The notes under the pieces are model-generated. The model did not search any database. It had not been told where the DNA came from and saw only the letters and a list, made by a program, of their open reading frames with translations. From the NCBI GenBank assembly GCA_947478405.1, contig CANJVX010000007.1, forward strand, positions 1 to 64,000: a stretch of DNA of 64,000 bases. Direction: 5' to 3'. A program made the translations under genes and the position numbers. The stretch comes from Beijerinckiaceae bacterium. Lineage in GTDB: Bacteria > Pseudomonadota > Alphaproteobacteria > Rhizobiales > Beijerinckiaceae. Each line of letters begins with the position of its first letter. The stretch's first letter is position 1. Positions 40,127-40,771 of this stretch are shown piece by piece.

Positions 40127-40151
40127 TCGCTTTCTACCCTTCAAAAGAAAA

Positions 40152-40179
40152 AGCCTGGTGGAAACACCGGGCTTTTTTT
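40152..40179 (+). terminator. Terminator after fba
   Basis: AGCCTGGTG (40152-40160) and CACCGGGCT (40165-40173) form a 9-bp stem with one wobble and a four-base loop, followed by a run of seven Ts. Confidence 0.88.
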
Positions 40180-40180
40180 A

Positions 40181-40239
40181 TCACCCTCTCCCAGAGGGAG
40201 AGGGTCGGCGCGAATGCGCCGGGGTGAGGGGTTGCAACC
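40181..40239 (+). repeat. Left inverted repeat of the DUF559 unit
   Basis: Contains a perfect hairpin CCCTCTCCC/GGGAGAGGG, then a second hairpin GGCGC/GCGCC, then GGGTGAGGGGTT. Read in reverse it matches the right repeat at 40681-40734 over its whole length, apart from the second hairpin and a short insertion. Confidence 0.85.
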
Positions 40240-40270
40240 TCTGGTTTCTTGCGCAATGTTACCAAGCGAG

Positions 40271-40289
40271 GGCATGCTTAAAGCATGCC
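40271..40289. promoter_or_regulatory. Palindrome covering the DUF559 start codon
   Basis: GGCATGCTT (40271-40279) and AAGCATGCC (40281-40289) form a perfect 9-base inverted repeat around a single A. The ATG of the DUF559 gene is inside the right arm. It could be an operator or an mRNA hairpin that blocks initiation. Confidence 0.6.
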
Positions 40290-40668
40290 TCGTCGTTCCA
40301 TCATCATTGCGCGTAAATTGCGCGCTCGCGACACCTCACCAGAAGAAAAACTCTGGGAGCAATTGCGTAATCGTCGCCTTGAGGGTCTAAAGTTTCGGCG
40401 ACAAGTTCCCATCGATAGATACTTTGCCGACTTCGCGTGTCTTGAGCTTGGAATCACCATTGAGCTTGATGGCATCCAACATGAGCACATGATCGAGGCA
40501 GATCGTGCGCGGCGGGATGTGATCGAGGCGCAAGGCTTTCTTGAAGTGCGTTTCACAAATATAGAGATTAACGAACGTCTTGATTGGGTTGTCCAAGAAA
40601 TACGACGCGTGATTGACATTGCGCGCGCACGCGACATGCGCGATCCGCGCATGCGATGGGATGTCTGA
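40285..40668 (+). CDS. DUF559 endonuclease-like protein inside inverted repeats
   Basis: A 127-residue protein of the DUF559 family, which has a PD-(D/E)XK nuclease-type fold related to the Vsr mismatch endonuclease. Motifs are ARKLRARDTSPEEKLW (N-terminal helix), FRRQVPIDRYFADF (Asp 49), ITIELDGIQHE (Glu 60, Asp 62, His 66) and an LEVRFTN strand. Catalytic roles are inferred by pattern. The gene fills the space between two ~55-base inverted repeats that lie between the fba and ftsH terminators. No ribosome site is obvious and the start codon is in a palindrome. No nuclease target is known. Confidence 0.85.
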   Translation: MPRRSIIIARKLRARDTSPEEKLWEQLRNRRLEGLKFRRQVPIDRYFADFACLELGITIELDGIQHEHMIEADRARRDVIEAQGFLEVRFTNIEINERLDWVVQEIRRVIDIARARDMRDPRMRWDV

Positions 40669-40680
40669 TCCCGGAGAGGT

Positions 40681-40734
40681 GGTAACCCCTCACCCCGCTC
40701 CTGCGGAGCGACCCTCTCCCTCTGGGAGAGGGTA
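40681..40734 (-). repeat. Right inverted repeat of the DUF559 unit
   Basis: Reads AACCCCTCACCCCG, then hairpin GCTCC/GGAGC, then the perfect hairpin CCCTCTCCC/GGGAGAGGG. It is the inverted partner of 40181-40239 and starts 13 bases after the DUF559 stop. Confidence 0.85.
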
Positions 40735-40762
40735 AAGAAAAACCCGGCGTCTCCGCCGGGCT
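40735..40762 (-). terminator. Terminator of ftsH
   Basis: CCCGGCG (40743-40749) and CGCCGGG (40754-40760) form a 7-bp stem. On the minus strand it is followed by TTTTTCTTT. It lies just after the ftsH stop at 40772. Confidence 0.82.
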
Positions 40763-40771
40763 TGTTTGTCC

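Follow-up and report, generated by a model that had tools for sequence, protein, structure and literature searches.

A DUF559 nuclease gene enclosed by inverted repeats resembling intrastrand triplex motifs, and the association of this gene family with such motifs across genomes

Introduction

Intrastrand triplex motifs (TM, also PIT) are repeats that are abundant in Proteobacteria, including E. coli, and have been linked to genome instability; the available text of the paper describing them leaves the manner of their spread open (Holder 2015, PMC4666352). According to the same text, the E. coli motif (TM_ECO) folds into a triplex in solution, with no sign of a stable triplex in vivo, and its authors never found mobility-providing activities around the E. 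coli copies. The published TM_ECO pattern has a second loop of 3 nt, and the five inverted TM pairs of E. coli K-12 always join two types, which are defined by this second loop (PMC4666352, available text).

YcjD of E. coli has already been placed among the members of the PD-(D/E)XK superfamily, and its profile finds Vsr (PMC1189080, available text). YcjD belongs to the Pfam family DUF559 (PF04480), as does VsrA of Caulobacter, which has a DUF559 domain and without which, it is reported, a methyltransferase mutant does not mount its SOS response (PMC12907096, available text). A non-exhaustive literature search, by title or abstract, returned no paper joining DUF559 with triplex motifs. The repeat and the protein family are each already known, and what the sequences suggest as new is their pairing.

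Results

A DUF559 Gene Lies between Inverted Repeats

The window, a stretch of 64,000 nucleotides from a Beijerinckiaceae bacterium (positions 1 to 64,000 of contig CANJVX010000007.1, assembly GCA_947478405.1), carries a DUF559 unit placed between the convergent genes fba and ftsH. The unit and its immediate surroundings comprise the following features.

40150..40180, + strand: fba terminator-like hairpin and T run, immediately outside the left repeat (direct reading, hairpin at 40150-40175; absent from the terminator scan output)
40183..40205, + strand: left repeat, hairpin H1, CCCTCTCCC-AGA-GGGAGAGGG (exact pattern match 40184-40230, + strand)
40206..40221, + strand: left repeat, variable hairpin H2, which separates the purine arm from the tail (sequence reading; differs among other copies)
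40222..40230, + strand: left tail GGGTGAGGG, rich in G and facing the gene; it mirrors the purine arm, T or A standing opposite its A residues (sequence reading)
40285..40668, + strand: DUF559 (PF04480) Vsr-like PD-(D/E)XK nuclease gene, 127 aa (open reading frame, profile match, conserved residues and predicted fold)
40687..40695, - strand: right tail, CCCTCACCC on the + strand, facing the gene (pattern match 40687-40732, - strand)
40696..40710, - strand: right repeat, variable hairpin H2 (sequence reading)
40711..40733, - strand: right repeat, hairpin H1 (sequence reading and inverted-arm search)
40740..40763, - strand: ftsH terminator-like hairpin, immediately outside the right repeat (terminator scan)

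The open reading frame at 40285-40668 matches PF04480/DUF559 with an E value of 2e-32 and 111.7 bits, above the gathering cut-off of 20.6, and the residues E20, W24, Q40, D49, D62, G63, H66, D73, R76 and R89 are invariant among 85 sequences. The predicted fold (pLDDT 88.7) is nearest, among solved structures, to 3hrl, a gonococcal endonuclease-like protein that is also matched by the DUF559 profile, then to the homing endonuclease I-Bth0305I and, more weakly, to Vsr. Two pairs of arms are inverted around the gene, 40174-40223 with 40693-40742 (50 nt, 80% complementary) and 40220-40242 with 40675-40697 (23 nt, 91%), and the unit arms reach a left/right inverted-repeat score of 45.5 against a control 99th percentile of 15.5. 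The original prediction of a small nuclease gene packaged between inverted structured repeats is borne out by these arms, which enclose the DUF559 frame, and its placement of the unit between the fba and ftsH terminators agrees with a hairpin on both sides, found by scan for ftsH and by reading for fba. A search for known RNA families gave 11 matches at E ≤ 1, none of which reaches the gathering score, and PADLOC gave no match to a defence system.

The Repeats Resemble Intrastrand Triplex Motifs

The repeat is built of three parts, namely hairpin H1, with a pyrimidine 5′ arm (CCCTCTCCC) and a purine 3′ arm (GGGAGAGGG), the variable hairpin H2, and the G-rich tail (GGGTGAGGG). Across classes the tail reads as the mirror of the purine arm, A being opposed by either T or A, as in GGGAGAAGG with GGATGAGGG, GGGGAGAGG with GGTGAGGGG, GGGGAGGG with GGGTGGGG, and GGGGGAGA with AGAGGGGG. 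When the mirror relation was compared with a direct one in 195 asymmetric arms, of which only the 98 having a tail by either relation enter the comparison, the mirror fitted better in 59 and the direct relation in 13, with 26 ties, and the mean tail fit was 0.96 for mirror, 0.87 for direct and 0.81 for shuffled tails. The alternative that the tail relates directly (Watson-Crick) to the pyrimidine arm was set aside as weaker overall, though it is not without cases, being the better fit in these 13 of 98 arms. Because many arms are nearly symmetric, searching by this relation continues to give hits, on the left of 57, the right of 39 and both sides of 27 among 108 DUF559 loci, against 1 of 302 controls.

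Direct reading of the window repeats shows purine arm and tail mirroring each other, with triads of the G*GC, A*AT or T*AT kind, as in triplex motifs. Mirror tails give the triads of a purine-motif triplex, which places the window repeats within, or very near to, the intrastrand triplex motifs already published (TM/PIT; Holder 2015, PMC4666352); as repeats they are not new. Their second loop is 17 nt long and so departs from the 3 nt of the published pattern; the linker measures ≤6 nt in 34 of the 89 DUF559 loci of the order-level set (described below) that have an inward TM.

The Source Genome Holds Gene-less Doublets of the Same Build

The source genome (3.03 Mb, 79 contigs, 95% complete) has one DUF559 match, and its 79 contigs gave no match to a Y1 HUH transposase (PF01797) at E ≤ 0.001. 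BLAST with the left arm finds dispersed copies, one of them 100% identical over 51 nt. A dispersed inverted-doublet feature, REPIN-like in form, is present as 11 gene-less doublets with tails inward; ten measure 118-133 bp, and one, on contig C10, has a longer spacer, its second half lying some 60 nt away. By reading, every gene-less doublet consists of one CCCTCTCCC half and one CCTTCTCCC half. The DUF559 unit has the build of a doublet in which the gene replaces the spacer, and both its halves are of the CCCTCTCCC type, unlike the mixed doublets.

DUF559 and Triplex Motifs Are Associated across Genomes

DUF559 matches occur in 130 of 249 genomes of the host order, from which we assembled 111 DUF559 loci, counting the one in the window; some genomes contribute several loci, and the set consists mostly of the top HMM scorers. 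Sufficient flank was available for 108 of them and lacking for 3. Left/right inverted repeats score above the 99th percentile, taken from 430 shifted windows of the same loci, in 61 of the 108. A TM is found on at least one side of 93 of the 108 (left 77, right 54, both 38), against 6 of 302 shifted control windows. A named, Caulobacter-rich set gives at least one TM side in all 55 assessed loci and both sides in 41 (4 of 59 loci skipped; controls 10 of 213), and a set from outside the order, counted after removal of 3 of its 23 loci that belong to the same order, gives 19 of 20 loci with at least one side and 5 with both (controls 5 of 40).

DUF559 and TMs are also systematically associated at the level of whole genomes. 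Counted by an exact pattern that covers two repeat classes, and hence part of the repeat classes only (a reversed control pattern gave 0 matches), the 249 genomes of the order divide into 98 with both, 32 with DUF559 only, 13 with TM only and 106 with neither, an odds ratio of 25; with DUF559 at E<1e-8 the four counts, in the same sequence, are 96/23/15/115. When labels were permuted within host families, the count of 98 was reached in 0 of 5000 trials, and of the 20 host families with both DUF559 states, 17 differ in mean TM count, 16 of these in the expected direction. Outside the order, 258 genomes give 47/34/8/169 with any DUF559 match and 44/12/11/191 at E<1e-8. The association is likewise seen among RAYT-negative genomes of the order (79/31/10/92). 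RAYT was rejected as the true mobiliser, as it has no match in the source genome and its own link to TMs is weak (22/15/89/123, p 0.07).

Against these figures, the TM pattern is absent from 32 of the 130 DUF559-positive genomes and present in 13 of the 119 DUF559-negative genomes of the order, and TMs lie on both sides of only 38 of the 108 order loci. Some genomes without a pattern match, G132, G175 and G214 for example, nevertheless have DUF559-flanking TMs of another class. Furthermore, the E. coli control genome scored as lacking DUF559 although K-12 MG1655 has ycjD, which reflects either another strain or a missed match, so some DUF559-negative scores may be misses. The original prediction had set two outcomes against itself, repeats scattered with no link to DUF559 and DUF559 genes usually bare of flanking repeats; the repeats are scattered but co-occur with DUF559, and TM flanks are the usual state of the order loci.

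Inward Pairs and Repeat Class Follow the Gene

Among the matches listed, all five inward TM pairs that lie 250-1500 nt apart span a DUF559 match (G239 contig C47, G242 C207, G351 C4, G231 C26, where a stop lies inside the gene, and G000 C7). In 400-kb samples of G058 and G211, deliberately placed on known DUF559 sites, the three gene-length inward TM pairs all hold DUF559 and the 13 closer pairs do not (0/13); against this, only 3 of the 6 DUF559 loci in these samples lie inside an inward pair. Two other arrangements were seen among the matches listed. Some doublets in G122, G168, G206 and G170 have outward tails, their halves separated by about 20-35 nt, and so reverse the arrangement of the source genome, and contigs C4 and C17 of G150 carry same-orientation TM arrays in regular steps of about 271-299 bp.

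The class of the repeat arm agrees with the DUF559 tree better than would be predicted from host family, as is partly expected if gene and flanks travel together. On a quick tree of 89 loci, from which the 19 loci without an inward TM were left out, we count 7 changes of arm class; shuffles within host families average 23, and none of 200 was as low. Linker class follows the tree more weakly, with 20 changes against 24.7 in shuffles, of which 3 in 200 were as low. The two DUF559 paralogues compared in G211 differ in flank class, and repeats resembling each flank are dispersed in that genome.

The Contents of Slots Change between Close Relatives

Within one genus, the alleles of two sites were chosen among the matches listed, both flanks being present in 22 of 23 and 23 of 30 fetched loci. 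The DUF559 gene is present in 7 of the 22 two-sided alleles of the first site, the others being gene-less doublets or short hairpin remnants, and in 3 of the 23 of the second. Genomes G064 and G123, whose flanks are 97-99% identical, differ in content at the same point: the first carries a DUF559 unit there, the second a gene-less doublet whose sequence is different. At two loci (L184 and L268) and in similar alleles, short palindromic remnants resemble a fusion of the two outer hairpin arms, such as deletion of the middle of a doublet or unit would leave.

A sister genome (G567, a Rhizobiales MAG) has the unit at the same place as in the window, with a DUF559 93% identical, and the gene is under purifying selection between the two species (dN/dS 0.07). 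This genome contains 31 TM-pattern matches. Comparison of 10 doublet slots (L317-L326) found in G567 one similar TM doublet, one different TM doublet, five doublets of the CGTC REP type, one CGTC doublet fused to a TM hairpin and one short CGTC-like remnant; in the remaining slot the right flank was not found. The slots are therefore common to the two genomes and their contents change. These slots seem to be contested by repeat families that are unrelated, and the CGTC REP doublets in 5 of 10 could mean that the slots rather than the nuclease drive the turnover. In several compared slots, TM doublets lie close behind stop codons. By eye, no clear target-site duplication was seen in the sites compared, few of which are truly empty.

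The ycjD Gene of E. coli

The DUF559 gene of K-12, ycjD, is flanked by a TM on the 3′ side; no TM was seen on the other side. The ycjD region, counted as a match over most of it, is present in 3365 of 5426 E. coli genomes (3364 on recount), and the neighbouring sapF end in 5372. Clean empty sites were sought, and all three ycjD-less sites examined hold efflux genes; efflux genes at the ycjD slot of other lineages have been described (PMC12817139, available text). A spread sample of 60 was drawn from 5393 records; in it, the 37 genomes with ycjD have 12-27 TM-matching places (median 19, the ycjD place included) and the 23 without it have 1-19 (median 5, one having 19), a contrast that is clonal and uncorrected for clonality. 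For comparison, 29 TM motifs were reported in strain 55989 and one in IHE3034 (PMC4666352, available text).

Discussion

We favour, with a probability of about 0.6, the reading that the unit is the gene-bearing form of a TM-element family, in which DUF559 would be the family's own nuclease, the dispersed doublets its gene-less relatives, and cutting of the motif by DUF559 the cause of its spread. This reading draws on the enclosure of the gene by tail-inward TMs, the gene-less doublets of the same build, the co-occurrence across genomes, the tracking of the protein lineage by arm class and the change of slot content between close species. The nuclease would recognise the hairpin or triplex end of a TM, probably while one strand is single at the replication fork, and would nick or cut at the folded end; host repair would then fill the break by copying in either a further TM doublet or the unit with its gene. 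The overall process would be an ectopic, homing-like copying rather than transposase chemistry. Strand joining is not expected of a PD-(D/E)XK nuclease by itself, which counts against spread driven by the nuclease.

The main rival shares the cutting step with this mechanism and makes DUF559 a homing parasite: the TM doublet would spread otherwise and serve as the target, and DUF559 would be a homing endonuclease gene, free-standing, that has settled in the spacer of the very site it recognises. The unit does resemble a doublet with a gene in its spacer, its fold lies near I-Bth0305I, and doublet and unit alternate at one site. Such a parasite, however, predicts many genomes with TMs and no DUF559; only a few of the DUF559-negative genomes are of this kind, 13 of 119 in the order and 8 of 177 outside it, and both halves of the unit are of the first type whereas the doublets of the source genome are mixed. 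We consider this rival unlikely, though it fares best among the alternatives.

Somewhat less probable still is a housekeeping role, in which DUF559 would trim or resolve TM hairpins at forks and the flanking TMs would regulate the gene as terminators or as a feedback site. Purifying selection (dN/dS 0.07) and the position kept in the sister species are what such a role leads one to expect; it leaves unexplained, however, why the flanks match a dispersed subfamily of the same genome and why the two G211 paralogues have different flank classes, and the content of the site varies within one genus. DUF559 could also serve a cytosine methyltransferase by Vsr-type mismatch repair, the role proposed for VsrA of Caulobacter, which has a DUF559 domain and on which the SOS response of the methyltransferase mutant is reported to depend (PMC12907096, available text); this role offers no reason for the repeats, and we regard it as improbable as the explanation of the unit, although it is not exclusive with a role as TM partner. 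Least probable of all is that TMs gather in slack intergenic DNA, where dispensable genes such as DUF559 merely tolerate them, since TMs are rare in shifted control windows (6 of 302), gene-length inward pairs held DUF559 (5 of 5 among the matches listed and 3 of 3 in the DUF559-enriched samples) and DUF559-TM co-occurrence is strong, even if TM doublets do lie close behind stop codons in several compared slots and the E. coli ycjD slot holds efflux genes in other lineages.

Returning to DUF559 as the nuclease of its own TM-element family, the pairing of gene and repeat recurs in many other bacteria, and the DUF559 family may therefore be the missing partner that spreads or maintains TM repeats. 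A broader and more tentative proposal, to which we give less than even odds, is that DUF559 elements form a separate minimal class of mobile DNA, in which a single Vsr-like PD-(D/E)XK nuclease would read the triplex end and seed gene-less doublets through host repair across proteobacterial genomes, including, via YcjD, the PIT/TM repeats of E. coli. If DUF559 is the cognate nuclease, TM spread becomes testable in E. coli and Caulobacter, a family of unknown role gains a function, the type of partnership known from REP/RAYT has a second, unrelated solution, and a protein recognising triplex or hairpin DNA is suggested.

Comparison with Known Systems

YcjD and VsrA belong to the same Pfam family as the window protein, and YcjD too has a TM at its 3′ side; their literature, so far as its available text extends, shows no link to repeats. 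The Vsr-like homing endonuclease I-Bth0305I has a related fold and is likewise a small nuclease gene inside a DNA element. Unlike in that system, no intron or intein is seen at the unit, and the repeats that enclose it belong to a family scattered over many unrelated sites.

As in REP/RAYT (TnpA-REP) systems and REPINs, the repeats here are palindromic, extragenic and arranged as inverted doublets, two of them enclose a small nuclease gene, and the lineage of that gene is tied to repeat class. The nuclease here is a Vsr-like PD-(D/E)XK enzyme whereas RAYT is a Y1 HUH enzyme, and the window repeats have a mirror-image G tail fit for a purine triplex. The original prediction of a build like that of REP/RAYT with a different protein fold thus stands, both in the inverted doublets with an enclosed nuclease and in the fold of that nuclease. 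The REP repeats of REP/RAYT carry a GTAG or CGTC tag, and both tags appear in the title of PMC3733652; by direct reading, neither tag occurs on either strand of 40183-40230 or 40687-40733. Since the Y1 HUH enzyme and the tag are both missing, we do not file the unit under REP/RAYT.

The closest likeness of the repeats is to TM/TM_ECO/PIT, with which they have in common the stems CCCTCNCCC / GGGNGAGGG / GGGNGAGGG, the mirror relation and the inverted pairs of two types. They differ from TM_ECO in their second loop, a 17-nt stretch with a hairpin in the window against 3 nt in E. coli, and in what sets the two types of a pair apart, the arms in the window genome and the second loop in E. coli. 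Unlike TM_ECO, the motif here is accompanied by a partner gene.
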